The notes beneath the pieces are model-generated. The model searched no databases, was not told the origin of the DNA, and saw only the letters and a list, made by a program, of their open reading frames with translations. Positions 9,545-34,336 of a DNA stretch of 64,000 bases are shown piece by piece (the stretch's first letter is position 1; each line of letters opens with the position of its first letter). Origin of the DNA: Eubacteriales bacterium (GTDB lineage Bacteria; Bacillota; Clostridia; Peptostreptococcales; Anaerovoracaceae); contig JAQWFH010000002.1 of the NCBI GenBank assembly GCA_028704515.1, positions 1 to 64,000 on the forward strand, written 5' to 3'. The position numbers were made by a program, and so were the translations under genes.

Positions 9545-12500
9545 GTGAGAAAAAGAATTTTAAGTATTTGGCTCTCGGTGTGCATGGTTCTGACCATGTT
9601 GCCGATTTCGGCTATGGCGAAAGAAGCCGACGCTTCAATCGGTACAAACGGAGAAATTATCGCATTTACACCGCTTGGCGAAACAGAAATATCGGTACCG
9701 ACCGGTACAGCAATTGAGGACTTGGGGCTGCCTGAAACTCTGACGGCAACGGTGAGGATAGCCGTAACTGCTGATAGCAGCACCGCGGAGGAATCCGTAC
9801 AGGATTCAGGAAACCCAGACAATTTGACAGAGGCAACTCCCGTTTCTGCCACTCCGACAGGCTCCGGCGAACAGGCAAAGGCAGACGAGACGACGGAGCC
9901 CGAATGGAACATCACAACCTCGGATATCCCGGTTACATGGACATCAGAGCCGAAATATGACATGGATGCCGAGGGCGATTATGTATTTACGCCGGTCATA
10001 GAGGACCACACGGTCAGTGCCGATCTGCCGGAAATTACCGTGACGGTGGGCGCGCAGCCACTTATGATGGCGCTGCGGACAGGTACCCCTGACACCTACG
10101 GCGACTTTTCGGTCAGCATAGACGAATCTGGCGAGGCGCCGACATTCGACGAAAGCAGCGAGACACTTACCTTTAGTGTGGCGGGTGAATATACCGTTGG
10201 CATGGCGGATGGAAAGACTTCCACTACCAACCGCATCGAGGTCACCTCGGCGGCGAACATCACCCTTGACGGCGTGAACATCGACGTGAGCGGTACTGAA
10301 AACGCGGCGGCATTCAAAATTACCGACACTGCCGGTGCGGTGAATATCACCCTTGCCGACGGCAGCGTGAACACATTGAAAAGTGGTAAATACTGTGCCG
10401 GCTTGCAAAAGGACACGACGGCAGAGGGAACCATGCTCACCATTGGCGGCACAGGCACACTAAACGCGACCAGCGGAGGCTTTGCTGCAGGCATCGGCGG
10501 CAGTAATGCCAAAAATGGCAGCTATATTACCATCAGCGGTGGAAGGATTACCGCCACCGGAAACGGTGCGGGCATTGGGGGCGGCATTAGTGCCAGCGGC
10601 AACCATATTGTCATCAGCGGCGGTACGGTTACCACACGGGGCGGCTACATGGCCGCAGGTATTGGCGGCGGCCATGGCGGCGACGGCAGGTACATCACCA
10701 TCAGCGGCGGTACGGTTACCGCAGAGGGCGGTGATTTAAGTGTGGGCATTGGCGCAGGCACTGACGGAGTAAGTAGCAACATCACCATCAGCGGAGGCTC
10801 AGTCAATGCCTACTGCTACAGTGGCAACGCCATCGGTGCAACGCCTACTAACGGTGCAGACACGCCTGTAAATGTTTACAAGGTCGTTATTCCCATTACA
10901 GGCGATACAACTGGCGGTGTGGATATCAGTTCTATGACCTTTACCAGCGGCGGCAATGCCTATATCTACAATATGTTTGGCGCAAAAAGCATTTTGGATA
11001 GCGGCGTGGGCAAGGTATATGTCTATCTGCCCGGCTCAAGCGAAGGAATTGCGGCAACGGCAAGCTACGGCGGAGTGACCTATTCCGGCGGCGTGACAAG
11101 CAGTGCGACAACGCTGACGCCCCCGGCCCCTCAAGCCCAATGGGGCGTGGCAGGAAGCGGCGGCGCCAAGCCGACAGCGTGGACACAAGGAACACTGGCC
11201 GACGCCATGAGCTATGCCAATAGCTTAGCAAGCGGTACGGCATATATTCAGCTCCTGTCTGACGTGAATCTTAACGCGGCGCTGGACTTTGTGTCGGGCA
11301 AGACCACCATCCTCGATTTAAACGGCAAGAAAATCGACCGTGGGCTGACGGCAGCAATTTCAGACGGCAATGTGGTCAATATCAATGGCAACCTGACCCT
11401 CAAAGACAGCAGCACGGCTATTGTTGCAAACCAAGGCAAAATCACCGGCGGTTTCTCCTCCGGTCCCGCTTCTACCTACGTCTACAACGGCGGCTGTGTT
11501 GACGTCAATAACCATGCCAGCTTCACGATGACGGGCGGCAATATCACCGGTAATAAGTCCACAAACAGTAGCCCAGGCGGTGGCGGCGTTTATGTCGATC
11601 AATATGGCAGTTTTATCATGACAGGCGGCAGCATCGACAACAACGAAGCGTTATACTGGGGCGGGGGTATCTATGCAAACGGCAGTTTTACCATGCTGGG
11701 CGGCAGTATCACCGGCAATAAGAGCAAAAATGGCGGCGTCTACTTTGCTTCAAACTTCACTGTAGGCGGTGCGACCGTGATTGATGATAACCAAACGACC
11801 GATGAAATACCCGTCGAGCGTAACGTGATGCTGGTTAACGATACGATTTCGGTGCATAGCGGGACGCCCCTCACCACCGGCGCATTTATCGGTGTGACCG
11901 CAAACTCCGCGCCCACAAGCGGCCTCCCGGTCAATGTCACAGGCACAAACTCCAACGATTACAGCAGCTATTTCTTCAGCGATAACAGCGGATACATGAT
12001 CCAAAATAGCGCAAGCAACGTGGTGCAGCTCGCGGTACTCGCACCCGTCATCGGCCCATTGACCATTTCCGATTCCTTTACAGCGGGGCATAACCTTGCT
12101 CTGAGCGACCTTGATGGTTATAAGCCAAGCATAACGAATAACGGGGTTACGATTACAGCGCAAGGCTGGCAGCAATGCGTTGAATTCGGCACTTCCTCTA
12201 GCGGTTGGTCAAATTGGTCGGCTGGAGTGCTTTCACCCGACACCGGAAGCACCTATAAGCTGCGCTATTACGCAACTTATTCGGACGGCACAGTTTACTC
12301 CAACGAAGTGACGCTTAACGTAGTCGGCAACACAACCTCCCTTGCGCTGACGGCAACGCCCGAAAGTCCACAGAACACGGGAACGCCCATCACCTTGACC
12401 GCAACTCTCACGGGCTTTTTTCCAGGAACCAGTGTCAGTGGGCAGGCAATTATCTTTAAGAACGGAGGATCGTCCTGCGGCAATGCAGCCCTAAACGCCG

Positions 12501-14773
12501 CTGGCGTGGCTGTATTTTCCTGGACGCCTCCCGGCACGGGAACCTATTCCCTAACTGCTGAATATTACGGCTCTCTTTACAACACCGCTGCCGCTTCAAG
12601 TGCTGTCAGCTACACGGTGGTGGTTGATTCGGATACTGAGGCCGTCACTGCGGCAAAAACCGCTCTGATTGACGGAAGTGTCAATGTGGCTTTCGGTGCA
12701 TCGCAGGCTGATAAAACAGCCGCCGTGCAAGCCTATGTGAACGGCCTGCTTACCGGGGATGTCACCGGGGTAACCGCAATCGTTACCTACAACAGCAGTA
12801 CCGGGAAGTATGATGTTGCCATCTCCAAAGGCAGTGTGAACGACACCAAGAGCCTTTCCATGACCGTGAACATCGCACCCGACCCGGATATTGCAATCGT
12901 CGCTGTGGCGAAAACCGCTGCGCAGGGTGCGAGCTATTCCAATATGACTCAAGCTGCTGCAACGGATGAGAATGCTATTGAAACGGCACTGAAAAATACT
13001 GCGGTAACGGCAGTCAACAGCAGCGATATTACAATTACTATAGACAAATACAGCTACATCCCGCCGATTGCGGGAACTTCCGCAAATCCCGGCGGTACGA
13101 ACGGCAGCTATACCTTTACCGTTATGGTATCCAAAGGCACTCAAAGCGAGACAACCGAGCAGAAAACCATTACCATCACGGCAACGCCTTATACAGGAGG
13201 AACTGGCGGTGGCGGCTCGAATGGCGGCGGCTCCACAACCCCTCCGTCCACCAAGCCAACCGAGCCGGTCACCGGCAGCACAGAAAACAAGGCCGCGGTG
13301 GACGATAAGGGCAACGCCAGCGTCAGTCTGACCGACAAAAACATCACAGATGCCATTGCAGACGCAAAGGCAGAAGCGGCAAAAAAAGGCGTGAACGCAG
13401 GCGACATCACAGCGGTGATCCATGTCACCACCAGCGGTAAGAACGCAGACACCGTGACAGTCAATCTACCCAAGACCACACAGGAGCAGGTCATCGGCAA
13501 CAAGATTGCCAGCGTTCAGCTTGTCATTGACCGTCCCGACCTTACCATTGGCATTGACCTTGCGGCGGTAACGGAGATCAACCGGCAGGCAAAGGCCGAC
13601 GTCCAGCTTTCTGCCACTCGCATGGACAATACAAAACTGTCCGGCAATGCAAAGGCCGCCATCGGCAACCGGCCTGCATATGACCTCAACGCACTCTACG
13701 GCAGCGGCAAGTCCGTGACCGACTTTGGCAAGGGAAGCGTCAGCGTGGAGATTCCTTATACTCTGCAAAAGGGTGAAATCGCGGGCAACGTCTACGCCGT
13801 CTATGTGGATGGTAATGGCAAAGTGACCTACCTTACCGATTCCAGCTACGATGCAAAACGCGGGACGGTGATGTTTTCCACCAATCACTTCTCCACTTAT
13901 GGCGTAGCCTACAAAGCCAGCTTCAAATTTACCGACATCAATGGTCATTGGGCAAAGGACGATATCCTCTTTGTCGCAAACCGTGGCCTTATGACTGGCA
14001 CCGGCGCCACCACGTTCAGCCCCAACGGTTCCATGACACGGGGTATGTTTGTAACAGCACTCGGACGTTTGGCAGATGCCGACATCAGCATCTATAAGCA
14101 GTCGAGCTTCACCGACGTAAAAGCCGACGCCTACTACAGGGGCTATATCGAATGGGGCGTGAAAAACAACATTCTGGTCGGCATCGGCGGCGGCAAGTTC
14201 GACCCGGACGGTCTTGTGACCCGTGAGCAGATGGCGGTTATTATGGACAGATATGCCACGGCTATCGGGTTCAAGCTGCCGGAAGTTCACGCACAGAACA
14301 CCTTTGCCGATAACACCAAAATTGGTGCGTGGGCGGCTCCTTCCGTAAAACGCATCCAGATGGCAGGCATCATCCAAGGCAAGGGCAACAATCTCTATGA
14401 TCCGCAGGGAACGGCTACCCGTGCCGAGGTGTCAGCCGTTATGCGCCGCTTTGTGGAGCTGGCGATTTTCAGTGATACCGCGCAGGGCTGGTCAATGAAT
14501 GACAGCGGTCAGTGGATGTATTACGAAAACGGCAAACCCATCATTGGAAAAAAGGACATCGGCGGCACAACCTATACCTTTGACCAGTACGGCGTGACGA
14601 CAGATGTGCCGAAAGGTCGGACGTATGCCACCTATACGGTACAGCGAGGCGACAGCTTTTGGGCGATTGCCCGTAAGTTCAACTGCACAATGGCCGAATT
14701 GGAACGGCTGAACAATAAGAGCAGATTCTCCCTCATCCACCCCGGCGATGTACTCCGGGTGCCGGAGAAGTAA
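9545..14773 (+). CDS. Giant modular surface protein with beta-helix, Ig-like, SLH, wall-binding and LysM modules
   Basis: Secreted protein of 1742 residues. GTG 9545 has GGAGG eleven bases upstream and gives a signal peptide (MRKRILSIWLSVCMVLTMLP, cleavage after SAMA). Modules in order: an Ig-like region (about 40-170); ISGGTVT-type beta-helix repeats (180-430); a second repeat region with GGSITGNKS units (600-730); a bacterial Ig-like domain (930-1030); two alpha-helical repeats with AVTAAKTAL and DIAIVAVAKTA motifs (1030-1220); a Gly/Ser/Pro hinge (1222-1245); a domain shared with the protein at 2831; three SLH domains (1459, 1519, 1585 onward); a wall-binding repeat (1648-1690, WMYYENGKPI); and a C-terminal LysM (1697-1742). 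It should be anchored very firmly to the wall. Ligand unknown. Confidence 0.88.
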   Translation: MRKRILSIWLSVCMVLTMLPISAMAKEADASIGTNGEIIAFTPLGETEISVPTGTAIEDLGLPETLTATVRIAVTADSSTAEESVQDSGNPDNLTEATPVSATPTGSGEQAKADETTEPEWNITTSDIPVTWTSEPKYDMDAEGDYVFTPVIEDHTVSADLPEITVTVGAQPLMMALRTGTPDTYGDFSVSIDESGEAPTFDESSETLTFSVAGEYTVGMADGKTSTTNRIEVTSAANITLDGVNIDVSGTENAAAFKITDTAGAVNITLADGSVNTLKSGKYCAGLQKDTTAEGTMLTIGGTGTLNATSGGFAAGIGGSNAKNGSYITISGGRITATGNGAGIGGGISASGNHIVISGGTVTTRGGYMAAGIGGGHGGDGRYITISGGTVTAEGGDLSVGIGAGTDGVSSNITISGGSVNAYCYSGNAIGATPTNGADTPVNVYKVVIPITGDTTGGVDISSMTFTSGGNAYIYNMFGAKSILDSGVGKVYVYLPGSSEGIAATASYGGVTYSGGVTSSATTLTPPAPQAQWGVAGSGGAKPTAWTQGTLADAMSYANSLASGTAYIQLLSDVNLNAALDFVSGKTTILDLNGKKIDRGLTAAISDGNVVNINGNLTLKDSSTAIVANQGKITGGFSSGPASTYVYNGGCVDVNNHASFTMTGGNITGNKSTNSSPGGGGVYVDQYGSFIMTGGSIDNNEALYWGGGIYANGSFTMLGGSITGNKSKNGGVYFASNFTVGGATVIDDNQTTDEIPVERNVMLVNDTISVHSGTPLTTGAFIGVTANSAPTSGLPVNVTGTNSNDYSSYFFSDNSGYMIQNSASNVVQLAVLAPVIGPLTISDSFTAGHNLALSDLDGYKPSITNNGVTITAQGWQQCVEFGTSSSGWSNWSAGVLSPDTGSTYKLRYYATYSDGTVYSNEVTLNVVGNTTSLALTATPESPQNTGTPITLTATLTGFFPGTSVSGQAIIFKNGGSSCGNAALNAAGVAVFSWTPPGTGTYSLTAEYYGSLYNTAAASSAVSYTVVVDSDTEAVTAAKTALIDGSVNVAFGASQADKTAAVQAYVNGLLTGDVTGVTAIVTYNSSTGKYDVAISKGSVNDTKSLSMTVNIAPDPDIAIVAVAKTAAQGASYSNMTQAAATDENAIETALKNTAVTAVNSSDITITIDKYSYIPPIAGTSANPGGTNGSYTFTVMVSKGTQSETTEQKTITITATPYTGGTGGGGSNGGGSTTPPSTKPTEPVTGSTENKAAVDDKGNASVSLTDKNITDAIADAKAEAAKKGVNAGDITAVIHVTTSGKNADTVTVNLPKTTQEQVIGNKIASVQLVIDRPDLTIGIDLAAVTEINRQAKADVQLSATRMDNTKLSGNAKAAIGNRPAYDLNALYGSGKSVTDFGKGSVSVEIPYTLQKGEIAGNVYAVYVDGNGKVTYLTDSSYDAKRGTVMFSTNHFSTYGVAYKASFKFTDINGHWAKDDILFVANRGLMTGTGATTFSPNGSMTRGMFVTALGRLADADISIYKQSSFTDVKADAYYRGYIEWGVKNNILVGIGGGKFDPDGLVTREQMAVIMDRYATAIGFKLPEVHAQNTFADNTKIGAWAAPSVKRIQMAGIIQGKGNNLYDPQGTATRAEVSAVMRRFVELAIFSDTAQGWSMNDSGQWMYYENGKPIIGKKDIGGTTYTFDQYGVTTDVPKGRTYATYTVQRGDSFWAIARKFNCTMAELERLNNKSRFSLIHPGDVLRVPEK

Positions 14774-22323: not shown

Positions 22324-22352
22324 ATTATAACATTTGCCCAGAATACTGTCAA
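22324..22352 (-). promoter_or_regulatory. Perfect-consensus sigma-A promoter
   Basis: On the minus strand TTGACA (22347-22352), exactly 17 bases, then TATAAT (22324-22329). It lies about 50 bases upstream of the enoate reductase start and predicts strong constitutive expression. Confidence 0.85.
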
Positions 22353-22438: not shown

Positions 22439-24913
22439 CTATGGCTCTAACGGCCAATCCCCGTAATGAACGCTCTCCGCTGTGGTTAACGCTCCTGTCT
22501 TGTTCACAGACCTGAACGGATATTGCCCCGTCAAAGCATTATCATAAGGATGGGTCTCGGTGTTGGAGCTACCCTCGGATGCCATCTCAGACCAAGTTTT
22601 GGCTTGGATTGTTTCTCCCTCCTCTTCCCCGATATAATCGCCTTCCCCTACATCGCTGATGTCGTCATTAATCCCGGCAAGCAAGTATACATTCTGAATC
22701 ATGCCCCCGCTCATTTTCCCTGCAAACGCGCCTTGAAATCCAGAGCCTTTCACAAGACCTGTCGAATAGCAGTCTGTATACGATGTATTCCCTGAATTAT
22801 CCGAACCCACAAAGCCCCCTGCCTCTATGCCACTCACCGAGCATGTCGAATAGCAGTTATCAAAGCTCGCATCGGCAGCTGGATTTTCGATCGCCCCGAC
22901 GATACCCCCTGCAGCGTCTATATTGGATGTGAGGTTGTATTTAATGCTGGAATATATTCCCTCGCTTGTGTTCCCTGCAGAATATGATTCTGCAACTTGT
23001 ACCTCAGCAACGCCCGATACCATTCCTATAATGCCTCCGCAGGCACCTGCGCTTCCTACAGTCATATCAAAATCCGCTGTTGCACATCCTTTGATAGAGA
23101 CCTTGCTCGCCCCCGCAATATTGCCTATTGCGCCGCCTATATGAGCATTTGTGGCGACAACGATGTCTATGCCTGTTATGAGCACCTCCGCTATAGCGGT
23201 CTGTGGTGCATCCGCAGCACAAGAGATTTGTCCGATCAGACCGCCTATATCGCCCGCGCCGGAAACTGTAAAGTTTAAACCGTTTATTTTTATCTCACTT
23301 AGTGAGACACTGCCTTTCGCCGAAATAGCGCCTATCAGTGCTCCGCTGTCGCCTGTCCCGGAAGCGGTAATGCTTATATTCTCCAAGTTCAGATCGGATA
23401 TCGCTAATCTTTGTGTTTCTCCCACCATCTTGAAAATACCTGCATTATCACTGGCATTCAAGGGCTGCATCCTCACATTTTTTATAAAATGATTGTTCCC
23501 AACATATGATAAAATCCATTTATTGTTTATTCCGTAATAGCTATCGTCGGCAAGCAATATTGACGGCACACCCGTTGTGCCATATGCGCGTATGTCTCCG
23601 CTCGGACAAGCCGCTTTGAACTCGTTCCAATCTATATCCCCGGTTTGTCGTACGCCCTTTACAAGATATTTTATCGGTCTTTCGCTGTTGTTCTTATCTA
23701 AGGCAATCGGTAGCCCTGACACTTTGCTGTCCAGGTTTTGCAGATGCCTTGTGCAGCTCACTTCCGCCACTGCGGCTTCTCTCGCAGGGTCATTTTTATC
23801 AATAGAAACATGCTTGAAAAGGCTATTTACAATAGCTTTCTCCCTGTTATTGCCCAGCGATGATGTCTTGCTGGTTGATTCTGCCGTGATTGTTATATCC
23901 TCTCCTGGTATCATTTCTGGCAATATATATGCAAAATGTCCTTCCGGAATGCTTATATTGTCAAGTTTTAGTGTGTATTTCAGGCAAGCTGTATTTTTGC
24001 CGTCTATCGACATATTAATTTTTTCTACACTCCACCATGCCGGTTGCCCCGGTGCTTTGGTAGGTGCAATTGCGTCATCATTCAACAGGAGCTCTATACT
24101 ACGTTCCTTGGCACTTTCACTTCCTTTAATTGAAAGGTTCACCTTTGTAAGAAGAGTATCTGTACCGCCCTCCGGTATTTGGAAATAATTCGTATCGATG
24201 ATTTCTACAGTCAATATGTCGCCGTTTTTTATCTTAATCATCGGCGCGGCAACGGTATTCCCCTCTATGTTGACGGCAGATGTTCCGCCGTAATATCCGA
24301 CAACGGTCTTTTGACCCTCTATCTGGTATTCACTCCTTATTTCCCCTCCGTCGCGGGTATTGGCTCTGCCCCCTGCGGCGTTGAGATCGATGACATTATT
24401 GTAAGAAAGGCCATTCTCGCTTTCCGTATAGAACACGCTGTAAATAAATGCGTTTTTTATGTTGTACTCGATTATATAGGAGCCCTTTGTCCTAAGAGAA
24501 TCATTTATAGCACCAAAAGGAAGCATATACTTCAATATGCTTTCTTCTAAGGTATCCGAATCGCCGGGATTGTATGTTATGTAATAATATTCTCCAGCAT
24601 CTATGCCCGCCACATCAGTCTCGTCCATGTCGGATGGCCTCTTCGTCATCAATTCTCCGAGCTTGTCCGGGTTGTTGGCTTCAAATTTCTTCAGTTCCCC
24701 CGTGGCCTCTGCCGATGTCATTCGATTTTGCGCCGCAATGAACATCTGTCTCGCGTTCGTGTCCATTTCGTGCTGCTTAAGATTCCCTCCATACTGCACG
24801 GCCGCAAGCATGGCCAGCCCCAAAAGCACAGTCACGATTCCGAGTGCCACAAGAACCTCTGGAAGCGTAAATCCCTTCTTGTTATTAAGTTTACAGTCCA
24901 TCGCGCTAATCAT
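22439..24913 (-). CDS. Giant prepilin-like protein with GLUG-type repeats (candidate pilus adhesin)
   Basis: Protein of 824 residues, last gene of the pilus operon. A class III signal (NNKKG/FTLPEVLVALGIVTV, cleavage after residue 14) and a hydrophobic helix are typical of type IV prepilins, but pilins normally have 120-200 residues. Residues about 500-800 contain five or six repeats with GGLIGQISC, GGAIGNIAG, GGIIGMVSG, GGIVGAIEN and GGFVGSDNSG, the GLUG pattern found in bacterial surface adhesins. Several paired cysteines (CYSTCSVSG) lie there. The start overlaps the pilO stop by eight bases; a second Met four codons later is an alternative. A tip adhesin incorporated as a minor pilin is a reasonable inference. 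Confidence 0.8.
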   Translation of the reverse strand: MISAMDCKLNNKKGFTLPEVLVALGIVTVLLGLAMLAAVQYGGNLKQHEMDTNARQMFIAAQNRMTSAEATGELKKFEANNPDKLGELMTKRPSDMDETDVAGIDAGEYYYITYNPGDSDTLEESILKYMLPFGAINDSLRTKGSYIIEYNIKNAFIYSVFYTESENGLSYNNVIDLNAAGGRANTRDGGEIRSEYQIEGQKTVVGYYGGTSAVNIEGNTVAAPMIKIKNGDILTVEIIDTNYFQIPEGGTDTLLTKVNLSIKGSESAKERSIELLLNDDAIAPTKAPGQPAWWSVEKINMSIDGKNTACLKYTLKLDNISIPEGHFAYILPEMIPGEDITITAESTSKTSSLGNNREKAIVNSLFKHVSIDKNDPAREAAVAEVSCTRHLQNLDSKVSGLPIALDKNNSERPIKYLVKGVRQTGDIDWNEFKAACPSGDIRAYGTTGVPSILLADDSYYGINNKWILSYVGNNHFIKNVRMQPLNASDNAGIFKMVGETQRLAISDLNLENISITASGTGDSGALIGAISAKGSVSLSEIKINGLNFTVSGAGDIGGLIGQISCAADAPQTAIAEVLITGIDIVVATNAHIGGAIGNIAGASKVSIKGCATADFDMTVGSAGACGGIIGMVSGVAEVQVAESYSAGNTSEGIYSSIKYNLTSNIDAAGGIVGAIENPAADASFDNCYSTCSVSGIEAGGFVGSDNSGNTSYTDCYSTGLVKGSGFQGAFAGKMSGGMIQNVYLLAGINDDISDVGEGDYIGEEEGETIQAKTWSEMASEGSSNTETHPYDNALTGQYPFRSVNKTGALTTAESVHYGDWPLEP

Positions 24914-25490
24914 TTTGGGCTTCTTCTAATCCTTCATATGAATCGGCATTATGCATCGTCTCAAAAAATGTAACTGTAAGATTGACGTCGACTACGCCCG
25001 AGCTAATCCCCCCGGTATTACCCGGCCCGTTTGACATGTTGATATCCCTTATCAAGCATCTGTACTCGCAATCGTAAAGCGCTTTCAATATATTCTTTGC
25101 TCCAGCATAGTTCCTCGCCGTGAAATCTATTTTTATGTCTCTGCGGACGATATTGTCTTCTTTGACGGGATTGCTAAAATTCAAGCTATACGATGAGCTT
25201 GCCGCCAATATATCGTTCAGTGCCTTCATTTCATTTCTCAAATTATCGTAGCTCGCAATATATGTCACTGCCCCAGCCTTGCCCGCCTCTATCTCCTTTT
25301 GCATTGAGGTGATACTTGCCGCTTTTATCTGCTCTATTTGAAGCTCTTCATTCAGCGCATCAAGATCATATTTCTGGGAGGCTTTGTCCACATTCCCCAA
25401 CACAAATTGGTAGTACATTACTGCGATGAGCAATACGGCTAAGATTGTAAAGAGAATTTTTTCTCTCAAGGAAAAGTTTCTTTTCTTCAT
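24906..25490 (-). CDS. pilO: PilO-like type IV pilus assembly protein
   Basis: Bitopic inner-membrane protein: short cytosolic N-terminus, one membrane helix (ILFTILAVLLIAVMYYQFVL, near residues 11-30), coiled coil, then an alpha/beta domain. This is the PilO layout; the sequence is divergent and identity rests mostly on topology and its place after pilM and pilN. ATG 25490 follows GGAGG; GTG 25502 is in frame but lies on the ribosome-binding site. It would form the PilMNO alignment complex. Confidence 0.75.
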   Translation of the reverse strand: MKKRNFSLREKILFTILAVLLIAVMYYQFVLGNVDKASQKYDLDALNEELQIEQIKAASITSMQKEIEAGKAGAVTYIASYDNLRNEMKALNDILAASSSYSLNFSNPVKEDNIVRRDIKIDFTARNYAGAKNILKALYDCEYRCLIRDINMSNGPGNTGGISSGVVDVNLTVTFFETMHNADSYEGLEEAQND

Positions 25491-25494
25491 GCTA

Positions 25495-26064
25495 TTACTC
25501 ACCTCCGACTTCTTTAAAGTTTATAATCATAGAGGTTGTAACAAAATCCCTAGAATTTTCTCCTGTAGTTGCATTCGATACCGAAACGAACAAAATCCGC
25601 TGATCGGCTTTCAACTCAGCTACGATATCGGACACTGTCGACAGTCTTACTCTGTCAATTGTCAATATCGCTGTATTGCCTTGTATATTCATAGAATATA
25701 TTCCAGCCTTTGCAAGGACTCCATTTTCGATTGCATCCAAGATCTGCATCCGATCCTGTTCCGCCTTTTCTTCTGTGTTGAGGTTGGATTTAAAGTAATG
25801 GCTGTATTCGCCTTTTATTTTATCGTATTCGCTGTTCTCTAGTCGAAGCTCTTCAATTAGAATTGCCGTCTGTCGGTACTGCTCTTCCGTTTCTTTGCTC
25901 TCAATCAGCTTGTCCACGACCGCAAATTTCCCAAAAAGTCCTATCACTATACTGAATATTAAAACAAGCTTCACCTTGGATTTCGGGTTGTCGTACTTAC
26001 TGTCATGATCCAAGAAATTCAGAGAATCCTTTTCGGGATATTTTTGCTTGATAAATTTTTTCAT
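25495..26064 (-). CDS. pilN: PilN-like type IV pilus assembly protein
   Basis: Bitopic membrane protein of 189 residues with ATG 26064 behind AGGAGG. A 40-residue cytosolic part, which in this family contacts PilM, precedes a single helix (VKLVLIFSIVIGLFGKF) and a periplasmic-side coiled coil (TEEQYRQTAILIEELRLE) with a small folded C-terminus. It lies between pilM and pilO as usual. Confidence 0.78.
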   Translation of the reverse strand: MKKFIKQKYPEKDSLNFLDHDSKYDNPKSKVKLVLIFSIVIGLFGKFAVVDKLIESKETEEQYRQTAILIEELRLENSEYDKIKGEYSHYFKSNLNTEEKAEQDRMQILDAIENGVLAKAGIYSMNIQGNTAILTIDRVRLSTVSDIVAELKADQRILFVSVSNATTGENSRDFVTTSMIINFKEVGGE

Positions 26065-26075
26065 AATCATGCCTC

Positions 26076-27077
26076 CTATTCCCACGTAATTCCCAGAGCT
26101 TTAATGCCCATGCGTATCTTATTGCGGTCCTCGTAATCATCGGCACAAAGCGCTTCGATTCCCTCTATCTTTACTTCGACGGATTGCGCTATCGCATCGA
26201 TGAGAGGTTCTATCAAAGATCCTCCTCCGCAATAATAAAGTGTTTCGATATTATTGTTGAGGTGATTGTAATTGTAAAAGTTCAGAACGCGCATTACTTC
26301 GATTGCCATGCGTCCGTATATCTCCATACATTGTTCTTCAAATAAGACGTTGTCTTCATTTGTTTCCTTCATGGCTCGTGCAGCCTCCAAGCCTACACGC
26401 TTGAAGCTCGCGATGGCAGCGTCTATGGCTTCACAGCCTTCCCCCATTACCCTCGTAATATCGTACCTGCCTTTCAAAAAGAAGAAGAGCTTAATCCCAG
26501 TATGCCCTATATCTAAGATGACATAATCCTTTTCGCCTTTTTCCCCGATGAGCGCCTCGTGGTCCTTTATAATCCGATTCAAAGCGTCGAATTCCGGTGC
26601 AATTACCGTCAGCTTTAGCCCGCTCCTGCGAAGCATCGTTCTGTAGCTCTCTATCAAATCCTTCGGCGCTGCGGTGATGATCAATTCCATTCCTATGAAA
26701 TTATCCTGGCTGTCGTATTTTTTTTCAATGAGTTCATAATCGTATATGTAATCTTCCTTGTCCTCCGTGATGTATTCTTGGAATTCATAAGGCAGGTTGA
26801 CTTTGAGCTGATTCACTGTCATAGCATGCATGAATACCCGTTTTGTATACACAAGCCTCTCGGGGAGCACTATTGCGACATTCTTGCAAGCAATTTTATT
26901 TTTTGCAATTGTATTCTTAATAAATTCCGACATCGCATCTCGCGATACAATTTCATCTCGCTCGACGAGGCCGTCAGGAATAGGCTCAACGACTATTTGT
27001 TCCAGGCTTCCCTTCAACCATACAGCCATCTTGATATTACAGTTCCCTATTTCGATTCCAAGTATCTTCTTTGCCAT
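26076..27077 (-). CDS. pilM: PilM, actin-like type IV pilus assembly ATPase
   Basis: Cytosolic actin-like protein of 333 residues. Phosphate-1 motif ILGIEIGNCNIKMAVW at the N-terminus, phosphate-2 motif YVILDIGHTGIKLFFF near 187, and adenosine motif TLYYCGGGSLIEPLID near 283 are readable. ATG 27077 has GAGGA before it. PilM recruits PilN and links the assembly platform to the cytosolic ATPases. Confidence 0.9.
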   Translation of the reverse strand: MAKKILGIEIGNCNIKMAVWLKGSLEQIVVEPIPDGLVERDEIVSRDAMSEFIKNTIAKNKIACKNVAIVLPERLVYTKRVFMHAMTVNQLKVNLPYEFQEYITEDKEDYIYDYELIEKKYDSQDNFIGMELIITAAPKDLIESYRTMLRRSGLKLTVIAPEFDALNRIIKDHEALIGEKGEKDYVILDIGHTGIKLFFFLKGRYDITRVMGEGCEAIDAAIASFKRVGLEAARAMKETNEDNVLFEEQCMEIYGRMAIEVMRVLNFYNYNHLNNNIETLYYCGGGSLIEPLIDAIAQSVEVKIEGIEALCADDYEDRNKIRMGIKALGITWE

Positions 27078-27110
27078 AACCAAATCCTCATCATCATCTA
27101 AAGTGTGTTA

Positions 27111-27887
27111 TTAAAGTAAATTTAAGTACCATGCGATTGCGTTGTCTCCTGCCAAAATGCTTATCAAAGTGGCCGCCGATATCGCTGGACCGAACGGGAT
27201 CCTGTTTTGTTTCATGAAAACCACCAAGACGATCCCAAGAATGCAGGATAGCATCACGTTGAAAATTCCGAGCAACGGTCCAAGATAAAGCCCTGTCATA
27301 AAAAACAGCTTGATATCTCCGCCGCCCAGGCTCTCTTTGCCCGTCAGCTTATCGAAAAGGAGCGCAATCAGTAACATTCCACCTCCGATTGCAAAGCCGC
27401 CTATCAAACCGTCCTTTATGTATTCTATCCAATTCATCTCCGCAAAAGGTATCGTTACAGCCCACCACACGGTTCCCGCAATGATGAATCGGTCGGGAAT
27501 CTCGTATATCTCCAAGTCTACAAGGGACAGACCGAGCAATATACAAACCAAAACGATATATATGAGCGTCAAGAATGAAACATCAAATCTATATACAATC
27601 AGCACAAATAAAAGTGCCGTTATAATCTCAATCAAAAGATATCGCGGGGCAACCTTCTCTCCACAATATCTGCACTTTGCTCGTAAAAATATATAACTAA
27701 AAATAGGGATCAGGTCGATCGCGCCTAGTGTATGATCGCAGACCGCGCAGTGACTCCTGCCCTTCAAAATACTTTCGTTATTTACAACCCTGTACGCCAT
27801 GCAGTTGATAAAACTGCCGATTGCGGCACCCGTTATAAACGCCAGTGCCAATATGTATGTTGTCAAAAATGGATCGATATGCAGCAC
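27111..27887 (-). CDS. pilD: Prepilin peptidase (A24 family)
   Basis: Polytopic membrane aspartyl protease of 258 residues. The two catalytic aspartates are in SLVDLEIYEIPDRF and LGGGDIKLFF. The N-terminal cytosolic loop keeps two Cys pairs (CAVCDHT and CRYCGEK), as in bifunctional peptidase/methyltransferases. GTG 27887 is the start, preceded by AAGGAG. It would cleave the pilin signals of this operon after glycine and may N-methylate the new end. Confidence 0.92.
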   Translation of the reverse strand: MLHIDPFLTTYILALAFITGAAIGSFINCMAYRVVNNESILKGRSHCAVCDHTLGAIDLIPIFSYIFLRAKCRYCGEKVAPRYLLIEIITALLFVLIVYRFDVSFLTLIYIVLVCILLGLSLVDLEIYEIPDRFIIAGTVWWAVTIPFAEMNWIEYIKDGLIGGFAIGGGMLLIALLFDKLTGKESLGGGDIKLFFMTGLYLGPLLGIFNVMLSCILGIVLVVFMKQNRIPFGPAISAATLISILAGDNAIAWYLNLL

Positions 27888-28023: not shown

Positions 28024-28066
28024 TTCAAGCCTCTTCAAAATGGTACTGTCATTGAAAGGAAGAATG

Positions 28067-28089
28067 CCTGTGTGCGTTGCGCACACAGG
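28067..28089 (-). terminator. Hairpin downstream of pilA
   Basis: CCTGTGTGCG and CGCACACAGG form a perfect 10-bp stem with a 3-base loop, 23 bases past the pilA stop. The following T content is weak (CATTCTTCCTTTC), so it may be a partial terminator or an RNA-stabilising end that keeps pilA message in excess over pilD. Confidence 0.65.
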
Positions 28090-28111
28090 CTGTATGTATT
28101 CTTTGTTAAAT

Positions 28112-28528
28112 TTACGTCAGATCTACCCATGTAAGAGTAACTGCACCAGCAGTACTAACTTCTACTTGGATAACATCATCCTTTTCACTCACTTCTGGGG
28201 TAGCACTAGTGTCTTTAACATTGGATCCTTGAGCGTAGCCTTCAGTAATGTCAGTAAGTGCATCAACAAGTTTTCCACTTTCTGCATCATAGAATTTATC
28301 TGTCACGGCATCTCCATCCCCGCTTAAGAACTCTACTACCGCAGCAGCCTTTGCCGCTCTCAGGTTCGCTTGGTCAGTCGCTGTTTTTGCTTTGTCAAGC
28401 TGCGCTGTAAAGATTGGGATCGAGATGGCTACGAGTACCGCGATAATCGCTACGACGACGAGCAGCTCCGCCAGGGTGAAGCCTCTTTTATTGAGCTTCT
28501 TTCTAAGTAAGTTATTCATTTGAATCAT
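28112..28528 (-). CDS. pilA: Major type IV pilin
   Basis: Prepilin of 138 residues. ATG 28528 is chosen because GGAGG precedes it and the signal MIQMNNLLRKKLNKRG/FTLAEL begins there; the open frame upstream is non-coding leader. After cleavage the helix FTLAELLVVVAIIAVLVAIS has the conserved Glu5. The globular domain is short and acidic (VEFLSGDGDAVTDKFY), with no Cys pair, as in clostridial pilins. A long structured leader before it and a hairpin after it suggest separate dosage control. Confidence 0.9.
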   Translation of the reverse strand: MIQMNNLLRKKLNKRGFTLAELLVVVAIIAVLVAISIPIFTAQLDKAKTATDQANLRAAKAAAVVEFLSGDGDAVTDKFYDAESGKLVDALTDITEGYAQGSNVKDTSATPEVSEKDDVIQVEVSTAGAVTLTWVDLT

Positions 28529-28572
28529 TTTAATTTTCCTCCATAGTGTGTTTATAATTTCATATATATCCT

Positions 28573-28601
28573 CGGGTACATTTCGTGGTTTTATATACCC
28601 G
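28573..28601 (-). promoter_or_regulatory. Structured leader of pilA
   Basis: The 147 bases between pilC and pilA contain a stem of CGGGTA with TACCCG (28596-28601 and 28573-28578) about 45 bases before the pilA start, with A/T-rich flanks. It could be an RNA regulatory or processing element. It does not match a c-di-GMP riboswitch consensus that I can recognise. Confidence 0.35.
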
Positions 28602-28675
28602 TAAAGACCTTCATCAAACAGCGGTGATAGGGAGTTGTTTCCTGTTAATTGCAATTAATTTTGTATATCCTTGCT

Positions 28676-29893
28676 CTACATCAGATTGTACATTGTAAAC
28701 ATCGGCAGATAAATCGATATGACAATAAATCCAGCAAAGAGTGCCATCACGATCAGTATCGTCGGCTCCAGTTTGCTCAGTGCCTTCGTGGTCGCATAGT
28801 CTGCCTCATTGTCAAAATATTCCCCGATTGTCTGCATCGTTTCATCGAGATCACCTGTTTCCTCTCCGATAGAGGACATCTCTATTAGCGTTTTGGGGAA
28901 ATACTTCGATCGCTTCATACAGGATCCCAATGTTCTACCTTCCTCAAGCCTTTCTCCCATATCAGCGGTTTCCAAGCTCAGCACATAATTATCCATGACT
29001 CCAGCTGTAATATTAAGCGCCTTATGTACGTTGACCCCAGTCTTGAGCAGTGTCGCCATCGTGTTCGCAAATTGTGCCGAACCGTTCATCAGTGCGATGT
29101 GCCCGAACGCTGGCAGTTTGAGCTTTGCCTTGTTATAAAATATTTTGCCTTTTTCCGTCTTGATCAGAAGCCTTACGCCCACAAGTATCATGATGAAGGC
29201 TATAAGAATAAGAGGCCAAAATTGTGCGAAGAAATCCGAGCTGCCTATCAGAAGCCTCGTAATCAAGGGAAGTTCACCTCCCAAGTCTTTAAAGGCTACG
29301 GATATCGCAGGAACTACTTTTATCATAACTACAGCAAGAACAATGATTGCGACAATTAATACAAACATTGGATAGGTCATCGATTGCTTAACCTTTTGAG
29401 ATGTTTTGTATGAGCGGGCGTAGTATTTTTCCAATGTTTCAAACGATCTTTCGAGTGTCCCCGATTCCTCTCCAGCTCTCACGGTCTCTATGAATGTAAT
29501 CGGTAGCTGCTCGTTGTTCTTTTTGAAGCTATCTGCGATACCGTTCCCCTCACTTACGTCCTTCGCAGTATACTCAAGCATCTTCTTGAGTTTTTTATCG
29601 ACCGTCTGCTCTGCCACCATTTCCATACATCTTGCAACGGAAACGCCAGAGCGTAGTATTATTGTAAATTGAGAGCACATTATCGAAAGCGCTTTTGTAT
29701 TTATGCCCTTTTTCCCTATCTCTATAAACAAAGGATTGGTTTTGTTTCCTTTAATTTGCGTAATCTTTGTAATGACGGGATACGTATCCTTAATCTTCTC
29801 TACCGCGGTGTATTCATCCTCAGCTTCGAGAATTCCCTTCACCTTAACGCCGTTCGAATTCATTGCTTTATATCGGTAAGTTATCAACGGCAC
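28676..29893 (-). CDS. pilC: PilC, type IV pilus platform protein
   Basis: Polytopic inner-membrane protein of 405 residues with two T2SS-F domains. Marker motifs are GEESGTLERSFETLEKYYARS (near 137) and GEETGDLDETMQTIGEYFD (near 340), and three hydrophobic segments lie near 170-200, 220-240 and 375-400. GTG 29893 is the start, with AGGGAG upstream. It is the rotor-like platform on which PilB and PilT act. Confidence 0.93.
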   Translation of the reverse strand: MPLITYRYKAMNSNGVKVKGILEAEDEYTAVEKIKDTYPVITKITQIKGNKTNPLFIEIGKKGINTKALSIMCSQFTIILRSGVSVARCMEMVAEQTVDKKLKKMLEYTAKDVSEGNGIADSFKKNNEQLPITFIETVRAGEESGTLERSFETLEKYYARSYKTSQKVKQSMTYPMFVLIVAIIVLAVVMIKVVPAISVAFKDLGGELPLITRLLIGSSDFFAQFWPLILIAFIMILVGVRLLIKTEKGKIFYNKAKLKLPAFGHIALMNGSAQFANTMATLLKTGVNVHKALNITAGVMDNYVLSLETADMGERLEEGRTLGSCMKRSKYFPKTLIEMSSIGEETGDLDETMQTIGEYFDNEADYATTKALSKLEPTILIVMALFAGFIVISIYLPMFTMYNLM

Positions 29894-29956: not shown

Positions 29957-31021
29957 CTATAACTTGTCAATATTCTTGTTCAGAAAATCTTTGTCATTTG
30001 CAGCCTCTTGGGCTGTTTTATGACTAATCATATTGGTCTTTACAAGTCTTATCAGATAATTATCCATGGTGACGCTTCCTTCTGCAGACGATGCAAGCAT
30101 CGAGGAGAACATCTGCGGTGTCTTTCCTTCTCTTATGAGATTTCTAAGCGCGCCTGTAACAACCATGACTTCGCAGGCCGCAATCCTTCCGGTTCCGCTT
30201 TTTTTTACAAGGAGCTGCTGGGCCAATACGGCTCTCAGTGTTGTCGACAGCTGCATTCTTATCTGCTGCTGTCTTTCTGCCGGAAATACGCCCACGATTC
30301 TGTCGACAGAATCTATCGCAGAATTTGTATGGAGTGTCGCAAATACGAGATGCCCTGTTTCCGCAGCCGTTATCGCGGTTTCAATCGTTTCGAGATCCCT
30401 CATCTCTCCTATCATGATTACATCTGGATCCTCTCTCAGTATTGCTCTGAGCCCTTTTGCATAGCTGACCGTGTCTTTGCCTATTTCTCTCTGATTGATC
30501 GTGCATTTATCCGGTGTGTACAGGTATTCTATGGGATCCTCCAGCGTTATGATATGCTTGTGGTATGTCTTATTTATTTCATTCAGTATGGATGCAAGTG
30601 TGGTCGATTTGCCGCTTCCAGTTTCGCCTGTTACAAGGACGATGCCTTTTTTATAATTTACAAATTCCTCAACGATGGGCGGAAGCTGCAAACTATGAAG
30701 CTCTGGTATTTTGTTACTCAGAATCCGAAGCACGGCCGATATACTTCCTTGCTGGCGGAACAAATTAATCCTGACACGCTCTCCAGCAATGGTCAATGCA
30801 AGATCGATCTCTCCGATATCTTTGATTTCTCCATAGCTCTCTTTTGCAAGCTCTTGTGCAATCGTTTCACAATCCTCGTCAGTAAGCACATTTTCGAAAA
30901 AATCCATGATAATGCCGTCTTTTCTGCACTTTGGCTTTTGCCCCGATACGAGATGTATATCGGAAGCTCCGATGTCCTTTGCTTTCTCTACTAAAGTTTC
31001 AATATCCATTATTTCTCCCAT
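29957..31021 (-). CDS. pilT: PilT, pilus retraction ATPase
   Basis: Hexameric secretion ATPase of 354 residues. Walker A GETGSGKST near 130, Asp box ITLEDPIEYLY, Walker B VIMIGEMRDLETIE near 200, His box HLVFATLHTNSA near 225. The C-terminus lacks the long extension of PilB. A dedicated retraction ATPase implies that these pili can twitch rather than only attach. Confidence 0.93.
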   Translation of the reverse strand: MGEIMDIETLVEKAKDIGASDIHLVSGQKPKCRKDGIIMDFFENVLTDEDCETIAQELAKESYGEIKDIGEIDLALTIAGERVRINLFRQQGSISAVLRILSNKIPELHSLQLPPIVEEFVNYKKGIVLVTGETGSGKSTTLASILNEINKTYHKHIITLEDPIEYLYTPDKCTINQREIGKDTVSYAKGLRAILREDPDVIMIGEMRDLETIETAITAAETGHLVFATLHTNSAIDSVDRIVGVFPAERQQQIRMQLSTTLRAVLAQQLLVKKSGTGRIAACEVMVVTGALRNLIREGKTPQMFSSMLASSAEGSVTMDNYLIRLVKTNMISHKTAQEAANDKDFLNKNIDKL

Positions 31022-31038
31022 TTAATAACTATGCTCGC

Positions 31039-32718
31039 TTAACTAATATTGCGCGCTAAAACCCTGCAGACTTCTTCAACTGTTGTGATACCCTTTCCAA
31101 TCAGCTTATCGCCATTCTTCAGCATAGAGACGAAATTCGTGTCGTTCACTAAGCTTGCCAATTCCTGCTTGGTACCGCCTCGGCTAATGCAATCTTTCAG
31201 TTTATCGTCCAGCGCTAAAATTTCAAACACACCAATCCTGCCTCTATATCCCGTTTGGAAGCAAATAGCGCATCCTTTGCCGTGATAATATTGCCTGTCC
31301 TCTTCTGGATCAATGCCACACATTACAAGTTGGTCTTTATCGGGAAGGTGGGGTTCCTTGCAATTTTTACAAATCCTCTTGAGGAGCCTCTGAGAAATAA
31401 CACCCCTCAGCCCTCCTGCAATAAGGAAGGGCTCGACGCCCATATCTCTAAGCCTATCTATTGCCGAGATTGCATCCTCGGTATGTATGGTCGATATTAC
31501 AAGATGTCCCGTCATTGCTGCTCTCATCGCTATTTCCGCAGTTTCGCCGTCACGGATTTCGCCTATCCCTATTATATCCGGATCCTGCCGCAATATGGAT
31601 CTCAACCCCCCAGCAAATGTCAATCCAGTTTTCTCGTTTATTTGAACCTGAACGGCGCCGTCTATCTTGTATTCTACGGGGTCTTCAAGCGTAATCAAGT
31701 TTATCTCTTCGCTTATGAGTTCTCTAATAATTGTATACATTGTTGAAGACTTTCCGCTTCCCGTAGGTCCGACAATGAGAATTACGCCGTTGTTTACGCC
31801 CATCAGTTTGTCCAGCTTGTCCGAATCGTCATCATAAATTCCGATACCCTCTCTGCTGAGCATCGTAGAATCGCCCAAAAGCAGTCTGATTACGGCTTTT
31901 TCATTATAGACCGTTGGTAGCGTTGATATACGCATATCTATATTTTGATTTCTTATCTTTATTTCCGCGTGACCGTCCTGCGGAAGTCGTCTCTCGGAGA
32001 TATCCATTTGACCCATTACTTTGATTCTCGATATAACAGGCTGACGCAAATCCTCGGGTATGACTAATATGTTTCGCAGGTCGCCGTCTATACGCATTCG
32101 CACCTTCATTCCGTCCTTGCCCGGCTCAAAATGTATATCGCTGGCCTTTTCTATAACAGCCCTCTCTATAATGGAATTCACGAGCCGAATCGTAGGCGCG
32201 GCACTTTCCTCCTCGGGGATCTCTGACAGTAGCCTTGGCGGGATAAAGCCTGATTCTGCACGCATCTGGGCCATCGCCTTTGTCGCACCTTCATTGCCGT
32301 AAAGCATGTTGATGGCATGGTCTATGCCGGATTCCGAAGAAATCATCGGAATAATTTTCTTTTTTGAAGCCTTACTCGCTTCCTCCATCGCCACGAAGTT
32401 CAATGGATCCTTCATAGCGATATGAAGGTTGCCGTCGTTTACCTCTATGGGGATGATTCCATATTTTTGGGCAATACTACCAGGGATTTCATTGAGCATT
32501 CCATGAGGTATTTCGACTTTGTTCAGATCTATGTAATCTATACCGAGTTGCATTGTCAATGCAACAATCAGTTGTGTTTCCGTTATAAAGTTATTGTCTA
32601 TCAGCACCTTGCCCAAACGATCCTTGGAAATCTTTTGAATTTCAAGCGCTTCTGCGAGCTTTTCTTCGTTCAGAAGCCCTGCTGCGATGAGCAAATCCCC
32701 GATGCGTTTATATTTCAT
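31039..32718 (-). CDS. pilB: PilB, pilus extension ATPase
   Basis: ATPase of 559 residues with ATG 32718 behind AAGAAGGA. N-terminal MshEN domain (1-150, GKVLIDNNFITETQL), which in many homologues binds c-di-GMP. Walker A GPTGSGKSS near 315, Walker B DIIGIGEIRDGET, and a tetra-Cys zinc site (CKNCKEP and GKGCAIC) near 460-485. It powers pilus polymerisation with PilC. Confidence 0.94.
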   Translation of the reverse strand: MKYKRIGDLLIAAGLLNEEKLAEALEIQKISKDRLGKVLIDNNFITETQLIVALTMQLGIDYIDLNKVEIPHGMLNEIPGSIAQKYGIIPIEVNDGNLHIAMKDPLNFVAMEEASKASKKKIIPMISSESGIDHAINMLYGNEGATKAMAQMRAESGFIPPRLLSEIPEEESAAPTIRLVNSIIERAVIEKASDIHFEPGKDGMKVRMRIDGDLRNILVIPEDLRQPVISRIKVMGQMDISERRLPQDGHAEIKIRNQNIDMRISTLPTVYNEKAVIRLLLGDSTMLSREGIGIYDDDSDKLDKLMGVNNGVILIVGPTGSGKSSTMYTIIRELISEEINLITLEDPVEYKIDGAVQVQINEKTGLTFAGGLRSILRQDPDIIGIGEIRDGETAEIAMRAAMTGHLVISTIHTEDAISAIDRLRDMGVEPFLIAGGLRGVISQRLLKRICKNCKEPHLPDKDQLVMCGIDPEEDRQYYHGKGCAICFQTGYRGRIGVFEILALDDKLKDCISRGGTKQELASLVNDTNFVSMLKNGDKLIGKGITTVEEVCRVLARNIS

Positions 32719-32732
32719 TTCTTATCCTTCTT

Positions 32733-33260
32733 TCAATTAGTTGGGCTAACTTTTATTTCCTGTTCAAGGACATCTTCACCGTTGTTCTTTATTTTAATCA
32801 CCGCTGTAAAGAGTTTATCTGTATCATCGTATTCTATGCTTTCTATCGCCGGTACTGGATCGAGGGTTTCCTCTTCTCCGGATGGAAGCGGTCTTTTGGG
32901 CAGTAGCGGCCTGACTTTATCCGGATTCCCTTCTGCCATTTCTATGTCGACGATCATAATCCCTTCGCTTTTGCTGGTTTCGTCGTTTTCAAGCTTTATT
33001 CTCTTGTTCGAATTACCGCTCAAAAATGAAATCTCTCCTCCCAAAGCTTGAATATCCTGAGCAAATCGGAGTTCATCCGTTATCTTGATTATCACGGTGG
33101 AAAGAAGTGTATCCGCCTCAGCTCTGAGCATAATATCATCGTATGAGTTTTTTACGGCACCTGCCCCTGTCACTGTGATGCCCGTGAGCAGCCCAATGAC
33201 CAAGACAACTACGAGAAGCTCTCCCAGCGAAAATCCCGCTTTTTTGTTCCTGTGTTTCAT
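32733..33260 (-). CDS. Minor pilin-like protein with type IV prepilin signal
   Basis: Protein of 175 residues. Signal NKKAG/FSLGELLVVVLVIGLL gives Glu5 after cleavage, then a helix and a soluble domain without close match. It lies four bases after the preceding minor pilin gene. Probably part of the priming complex at the pilus tip; which minor pilin it corresponds to is uncertain. Confidence 0.8.
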   Translation of the reverse strand: MKHRNKKAGFSLGELLVVVLVIGLLTGITVTGAGAVKNSYDDIMLRAEADTLLSTVIIKITDELRFAQDIQALGGEISFLSGNSNKRIKLENDETSKSEGIMIVDIEMAEGNPDKVRPLLPKRPLPSGEEETLDPVPAIESIEYDDTDKLFTAVIKIKNNGEDVLEQEIKVSPTN

Positions 33261-33263
33261 GGG

Positions 33264-33581
33264 TTATTCCTTTTCATATGAGACGATCGTGGATTTGCTG
33301 TCTTTGTATATACTAACATCGGAATAAGCCTTCTGTTTTGTGGCTCCGTCATACTCTATAATTACGGTTTGCCCCGATGTACCAGCTGAGCGCACCTCCG
33401 AAATCGTAAGGGCATTGTACAACTCTTGCGATTTCGCTTCGCTTTTTTCCATTATGTGCGTTGCGGAGAACACAAAAGACGATAAAAGCAGCATCCCCAC
33501 TACTGAAATCAAAACGGCTACAAGAACCTCGGCGAGGGATTCGCCGTTTTTCTGCTTCATTTTATTAATTATTACATTCAA
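33264..33581 (-). CDS. Short minor pilin-like protein (PilV/PilI-like)
   Basis: Protein of 105 residues with TTG 33581 after GAGGGAG. The signal KQKNG/ESLAEVLVAVLISVV starts the mature helix with Glu instead of Phe, as in some minor pilins and in PilV-type proteins. The remaining 60 residues are a small beta-rich domain. It belongs to the set of three small pilin-like genes that begin the operon. Confidence 0.7.
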   Translation of the reverse strand: MNVIINKMKQKNGESLAEVLVAVLISVVGMLLLSSFVFSATHIMEKSEAKSQELYNALTISEVRSAGTSGQTVIIEYDGATKQKAYSDVSIYKDSKSTIVSYEKE

Positions 33582-33597
33582 AATAAATACTCCCTCG

Positions 33598-34257
33598 TCA
33601 GTTTTTCACTATGGTTCCAGCCGACCACTCCAGCTTTGTCTCCATCCTTGTAATCACAACGATAACACCAGTCTTCTTCTCCTGATAACTATCGATTTCT
33701 ATGATTTCTTTATTTTTGTGTATCAATGCAGGGATGGTTAGTTTAGCGGCATATTTGTCTTTATCGGCTCCATCTAGTTCAAGCGCAACATCGATAGAAT
33801 AGTCACCATTCATCTTGAACATTCCATTTACATCGGAAAGATTGTTTTGATATCCAGGCGATTGCGGATATATTGTAAGTGAATCAGTATAGCTTGAAGC
33901 TCCATTATATATAGAAACGGAGCTGTCTTTGGCGGCTTTTTTGAGGAGATTTGCCAAGCTCCCGCCCGGCTCTGTTATATAGCCTTCCCTGGTTTTCGAG
34001 GTTACTCCGTTCCTCGATTCATATTCCTCGTAGTATTCGAATTTTTGATTTTTTATCTCATCTCTTATTAATCGAGCGGCAGAGGTTGTCGTATAGTACG
34101 CCTGTTCATTGACATCCGCCCCGATAACTCTGCCCGCGGCCGCACTGCTCGCTGCAAGAACAGCAGCGCCGACTACGGCACATAAAAGAAAGAACACTAG
34201 GGCAATTAGTATTGTTACTCCCGAATTTGAGTAAATTTTATGTTTTAAGCTCTTCAC
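33598..34257 (-). CDS. PilX/PulK-like minor pilin, first gene of the pilus operon
   Basis: Protein of 219 residues with GTG 34257 behind AAGGGAG. A short basic start (MKSLKHKIYSNSG) and hydrophobic segment (VTILIALVFFLLCAVVGAAV) resemble PilX-type minor pilins, though the processing site NSG/VTIL is atypical and lacks the usual Glu5. The rest is a soluble beta-rich domain with Tyr-rich stretches. Its role is judged from position and topology only. Confidence 0.65.
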   Translation of the reverse strand: MKSLKHKIYSNSGVTILIALVFFLLCAVVGAAVLAASSAAAGRVIGADVNEQAYYTTTSAARLIRDEIKNQKFEYYEEYESRNGVTSKTREGYITEPGGSLANLLKKAAKDSSVSIYNGASSYTDSLTIYPQSPGYQNNLSDVNGMFKMNGDYSIDVALELDGADKDKYAAKLTIPALIHKNKEIIEIDSYQEKKTGVIVVITRMETKLEWSAGTIVKN

Positions 34258-34307: not shown

Positions 34308-34336
34308 ATTATAGCAAAACGTGCCGTACATTGCAA
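34308..34336 (-). promoter_or_regulatory. Promoter of the type IV pilus operon
   Basis: On the minus strand TTGCAA (34331-34336), 17 bases, then TATAAT (34308-34313), about 50 bases before the first pilus gene. No other convincing promoter lies between the twelve genes, apart from the possible pilA leader. Confidence 0.75.

Follow-up and report, generated by a model that had tools for sequence, protein, structure and literature searches.

Modular pilins, which were listed in a 2021 InterPro survey, are thought to be located at the pilus tip for steric reasons (PMC8179133). The closest described examples are PilB and PilC of Streptococcus sanguinis (PMC8179133, PMC9934059), which share with the 824-residue protein described here a class III pilin module with a bulky binding module behind it (predicted in our case), a monoderm type IV pilus cluster and a location thought to be at the tip. 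The modules differ, being vWA or lectin in S. sanguinis and a GLUG-type β-helix behind a β-sandwich in the 824-residue protein; S. sanguinis PilB is also much smaller and its adhesion is proven, whereas that of the 824-residue protein is predicted. The survey further includes the combination IPR012902-IPR011493 as a single list line, worded "predicted peptidase" and read as an M26 peptidase (PMC8179133). Here, the combination comes without a peptidase motif, as one family and in a fixed gene context. Common to both are the pilin signal and the second module, IPR011493, which we take to represent GLUG in InterPro. Since pilin plus IPR011493 was already on record, the 824-residue protein is a modular pilin of a known kind.

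A homologous β-helix is found in the N-terminal domain (NTD) of the M26 IgA1 metalloproteases (6xja, 6xjb, 7uvl; PMC7695701, PMC9637739), where the carrier is a secreted protease and not a pilin; the middle and C-terminal catalytic domains of these enzymes were not found here, nor was their HEMTH motif. Bulky minor pilins such as Thermus thermophilus ComZ and those of the GspK/PilX type also carry a large extra domain, although it is inserted in the pilin sheet, while in the 824-residue protein it is appended. The likeness to PilY1/PilC of diderm type IVa pili lies in the inferred job, in which I-J-K minor pilins present a large adhesin. Whereas PilY1 is no pilin, the adhesin candidate here is itself one: its pilin helix is present, and Pfam gave no match to the C-terminal β-propeller domain of PilY1. 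Little work has been done on the type IV pili of gut clostridia, and the literature searched yielded no description of a binding subunit in this group.

Gene, class III signal and pilus operon

The window, a stretch of 64,000 nucleotides from an Anaerovoracaceae genome (contig JAQWFH010000002.1), contains on its minus strand an uninterrupted open reading frame of 824 aa at 22439..24913 (ATG at 24913, stop at 22439), exactly where the original prediction had placed it. The class III signal reads MISAMDCKLNNKKG^FTLPEVLVALGIVTVLLGLAMLAAVQY (leader ^ mature start). The leader, MISAMDCKLNNKKG, is encoded at 24872..24913, with predicted cleavage after G14 and a Glu at mature position 5. Both Pfam N_methyl (E 1.5e-6, 27.9 bits, cut-off 21.2) and NCBIfam TIGR02532 (E 5.6e-6, 26.0 bits, cut-off 16.3) exceeded their curated cut-offs, in agreement with the claim of a genuine signal on an outsized protein. 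G14 (G-1) and E19 (Glu5) are almost invariant across 38 homologues.

The gene is the last of a pilus operon, all on the minus strand, in the order K-like, I-like, J-like, PilB, PilT, PilC, PilA-like, PilD, PilM, PilN-like, PilO-like and the 824-aa gene. Pfam and NCBIfam searches revealed a type IVa-like machine, with PilB, PilT, PilC, PilD and PilM all present. The minor-pilin cassette opens with a K-like protein of 219 aa (33598..34257) that lacks Glu5 (SGVTILIALVFF) and gave no Pfam pilin match; it was assigned from its sequence and from homologues in the same cassette elsewhere. The I-like (GESLAE, 105 aa, 33264..33581) and J-like (GFSLGE, 175 aa, 32733..33260) minor pilins matched N_methyl below the cut-off, at E 0.0015 and 7.6e-4, respectively. 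These are followed by the extension ATPase PilB with an MshEN domain (31039..32718; PF00437 E 1.1e-121), the retraction ATPase PilT (29957..31021; TIGR01420 E 1.2e-128), the platform protein PilC (28676..29893; PF00482 E 1e-53), a PilA-like pilin of 180 aa that is probably the major pilin (28112..28654; N_methyl E 7.5e-8), the prepilin peptidase PilD (27111..27887; PF06750 E 1.8e-30, and PF01478) and PilM (26076..27083; PF11104 E 9.5e-26). PilN-like (25495..26085) and PilO-like (24906..25502) are assigned by position and mutual similarity only: the former lies between PilM and PilO-like, a position that a homologue occupies in other operons, and the latter has a weak T2SSM match (E 0.023). The ATG of the 824-aa gene overlaps the PilO-like stop codon by 8 nt (ATGATTAG). 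The proposed position at the operon end, together with the assembly machine, was thus confirmed.

A candidate operon promoter with an extended -10 (34308..34336, minus strand; TTGCAA-17-TATAAT, 10/12), identified by consensus match only, lies about 50 nt ahead of the operon's first gene. Between PilA-like and PilD, an 11-pair hairpin (28066-28090) is a candidate attenuator or mRNA stabiliser that would favour the pilin. Downstream of the operon, the stretch 22324-22352 before a flavin oxidoreductase gene has a perfect promoter consensus (TTGACA-17-TATAAT plus TG), again by consensus match only. Elsewhere in the window, 9545-14773 on the plus strand encodes a secreted surface-type protein of 1742 aa with glycine-rich β-helix-like repeats and a C-terminus that, by eye, has the look of SLH and LysM.

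Predicted fold and relation to IgA1 proteases

AlphaFold2, run with an alignment of 38 homologues, modelled the whole 824-residue protein at a mean pLDDT of 87.6 as a pilin helix (residues 17-71), a small mixed head, a β-sandwich (about 225-400) and a long β-helix reaching to about residue 760. On the minus strand of the window, these parts correspond to the α1 helix (residues 15-71, 24701..24871), the pilin head with a conserved linker (72-224, 24242..24700), the β-sandwich region (225-400, 23714..24241), the β-helix (401-760, 22634..23713) and a C-terminal tail with a conserved HYGDWP motif (761-824, 22442..22633). When the pilin module was folded alone (residues 11-224), mean pLDDT was 89.3; a search of this fold against the PDB gave no significant match for the head, with PAK pilin at E 1.5, a point against the pilin reading. 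The N-terminus of the family profile matched solved pilins at E 2.6e-9.

For the whole model, Foldseek against the PDB returned IgA1 proteases as the sole significant matches (E 3.9e-5 to 5e-4). Whole-chain TM-scores were low (0.19-0.25), as is expected if one domain alone is common to both proteins. The family profile matched 6xjb, the Streptococcus pneumoniae IgA1 protease, at E 5.5e-13; since a PDB search with the single 824-aa sequence yielded pilins only (E 0.05-0.18), the homology to IgA1 proteases rests on the family profile. Chain 6xja_P has 1299 residues, consistent with the 665-1963 construct, and the stretch matched in it would be about residues 844-993. This is inside the NTD β-helix, given as residues 781-1070 in the cryo-EM papers, according to which the NTD touches the IgA1 Fab and the β-helix moves as a gate (PMC7695701, PMC9637739).

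This homology to the M26 N-terminal region, together with the "predicted peptidase" wording for IPR012902-IPR011493 (PMC8179133), could be taken to indicate a pilus-borne M26 peptidase. We give this reading next to no probability and regard it as close to refuted: HExxH is absent from all 38 family members, so these are not peptidases, and Pfam detected no catalytic M26 region in the 824-residue protein or in its homologues (sets of 30 and 38), which together argues against the label. A second possibility is that the β-helix binds DNA, for uptake or biofilm, as in Thermus ComZ, a minor pilin with a β-solenoid thought to bind DNA (PMC8179133). PilT, encoded in the operon, is compatible with such a role; however, ComZ carries its solenoid as an insertion in the pilin sheet, the β-helix here is C-terminal, and the nearest relatives of the latter are IgA1 proteases, so that we consider a DNA-binding pilin improbable. 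β-Helices are common scaffolds, and the homology to IgA1 proteases therefore does not give the ligand.

The original prediction had described this part of the protein as GLUG repeats of adhesin type. In its simplest form the claim fails, since Pfam GLUG (PF07581) gave no match to the 824-residue protein even at E<=1; with a home-made GLUG HMM (six repeats of one protein), it was indistinguishable from shuffled sequence. What stands is a degenerate form of the repeats. Residues 401-824 contain five GGxhG motifs, at residues 557, 593, 626, 669 and 699 (22709..23245, minus strand), compared with a mean of 0.19 and a maximum of 3 in 20,000 shuffles. Furthermore, the family profile of this half aligned to a Pfam-GLUG protein (7 GLUG stretches, E 7.6e-24) at an hhalign E of 1.2e-15, with nothing obtained from the shuffled target, the reversed target or the N-terminal half of the family profile, and Pfam GLUG matched 11/30 homologues in one set and 14/38 in another. 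The region is better described as a β-helix related to the N-terminal β-helix of M26 IgA1 proteases. "Adhesin-type" is an inferred label, and we know of no established binding activity of GLUG.

We consider it probable that the 824-residue protein is a modular type IV minor pilin, most likely tip-exposed, that binds through its β-helix. The 14-residue leader would be removed by the operon's own PilD, after which the bare hydrophobic helix would be inserted into the pilus together with the K-, I- and J-like minor pilins. The shaft has no room to bury a head of 750 residues, and the protein would thus most likely sit at or near the tip, with the pilin head and a β-sandwich stalk holding the long β-helix outward. 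The β-helix may then bind a host or microbial surface, and PilT-driven retraction would pull on the surface so bound. The idea of a minor pilin bearing a tip adhesin, already put forward in the original prediction, is a reasonable one. K-, I- and J-like pilins are encoded in the operon, and the gene that most often precedes homologues is J-like: the upstream neighbour was J-like in 28 and PilO-like in 15 of 68 loci, a count in which some genomes belong to both sets and enter twice. With its fixed gene position, dedicated pilin carrier and IgA-protease-related β-helix, the family offers a testable candidate for commensal surface attachment.

Copies without the class III signal

UBA1440, from the same genus, encodes an orthologue of 851 aa that is 44% identical to the window protein and has the same flanking genes (ferritin-like and lactate oxidase-like), with the pilus genes absent from this place. 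Its N-terminus, RMLSKSRIAKILGITAALIAVVVFAAVQY, has neither G-1 nor Glu5, and no N_methyl protein, PilB, PilT, PilD or PilM above the cut-off was detected in this genome, which is 90% complete. In Aminicella lysinilytica, a second copy without the class III motif (L098:14062-18111, the same as L124:13263-17312) follows an intact one at a distance of 6 nt. With the first 45 residues left out, a tree grouped the window and UBA1440 proteins (100/100), and this tree would need the signal to have been lost twice, independently.

In both signal-less copies, the loss of conserved sites is restricted to the N-terminal helix, where 3/17 sites were kept compared with 139/198 elsewhere in one (p 3e-5) and 4/17 compared with 157/198 in the other (p 5e-6); the remainder was kept as in the intact sisters (146/198 and 157/198). 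The helix of the window protein is somewhat reduced too (8/17 conserved sites, p 0.03), and when N-terminal helices were compared directly the difference was weak (p 0.14 and 0.04). From this pattern we infer that the C-terminal part may keep its function without a pilus; the survival of the UBA1440 orthologue without a signal and without detected pilus genes suggests that this part can be useful off the pilus.

The existence of the two signal-less copies also raises the question as to whether the window protein is itself a membrane-anchored surface protein outside pili, its pilin signal being a relic. We regard this as very improbable, given that the window protein keeps G-1 and Glu5, as does every other homologue with the N-terminus present, and that nearly all homologues are encoded with pilus genes. 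Starting instead from a tip-exposed binding pilin, we tentatively suggest, at somewhat less than even confidence, that the sandwich and β-helix form a binding unit useful on or off the pilus. Loss of the class III signal alone would then turn the pilin into a membrane-anchored surface protein, in UBA1440 once the machine had been lost and in Aminicella lysinilytica beside an intact copy in the same operon. If true, one ligand may be bound at both the pilus tip and the cell surface. The signal-less orthologues offer natural controls for telling binding apart from piliation. No earlier report of class III signal loss in such pilins was found in the literature.

The family across Clostridia

The original prediction regarded the architecture as unknown in clostridia, which did not hold. 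The survey had already listed IPR012902-IPR011493 in 2021 (PMC8179133), and a scan of GTDB species with an alignment of four sequences as query revealed at least 44 homologue loci, mostly from Clostridia, that fall in Lachnospiraceae, Oscillospiraceae, Erysipelotrichaceae and others. A contig scan with the single 824-aa protein as query had found nothing. A literature search on GLUG and pilins returned nothing beyond the 2021 survey, and no experiments on any family member were found. What is new is that these proteins make up one coherent family spread over the Clostridia, whose genes nearly always lie next to pilus genes and whose pilin module never occurs on a small pilin.

Within the bacterial family of the window, Anaerovoracaceae, the full pilin module (E < 1e-21) was present in 29 of 350 genomes. 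All of the approximately 30 full-length matches were in open reading frames of about 600 aa or more; the module is therefore used by no small pilin seen. PilB was encoded in 25/29 genomes with the module and in 34/321 without it (Fisher p 4e-18, uncorrected for relatedness). The four module-bearing genomes without PilB comprise UBA1440 and three incomplete assemblies that have minor pilins beside the gene. The conserved core of the family ends in HYGDWP, where some members stop and others extend by hundreds to thousands of residues. The layout of this core, β-helix included, is conserved across gut and rumen Clostridia and is not hypervariable, which could also fit a structural role.

One such role would be that of a priming minor pilin, which fills the missing H slot of an H-I-J-K tip complex and starts pilus assembly, with the β-helix as a spacer or cap and adhesion as secondary. 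The cassette has K-, I- and J-like genes and no separate small H-like gene was recognised in it, the whole core is conserved down to HYGDWP, and a gene of the 824-aa type occurs in 19/22 genomes of the group with the closest PilB. However, two related PilB-bearing genomes, both incomplete MAGs, are without the gene, C-terminal extensions range from none to thousands of residues, and the signal-less copies retain the β-helix. We consider such a structural or priming role unlikely, and favour the tip-exposed binding pilin.

Two further kinds of large protein were seen at related loci. Another family of the same order encodes a 2568-aa pilin with Pfam N_methyl and GLUG matches (L096:2293-9996), which sits directly after PilD in its own pilus operon and contains several copies of a block that combines a YYEKYS..GY motif with GLUG repeats. 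At nine other loci, a giant open reading frame of about 2,000-3,000 aa adjoins the minor-pilin cassette; it is often truncated at the end of the locus, and wherever its start is visible this resembles a signal peptide. Of three that were scanned, two gave SpaA, Cna_B, MBG, PMP and Listeria-Bacteroides repeats and the other gave no match. It is possible that these giant proteins are non-pilin partners at the tip, comparable to PilY1.
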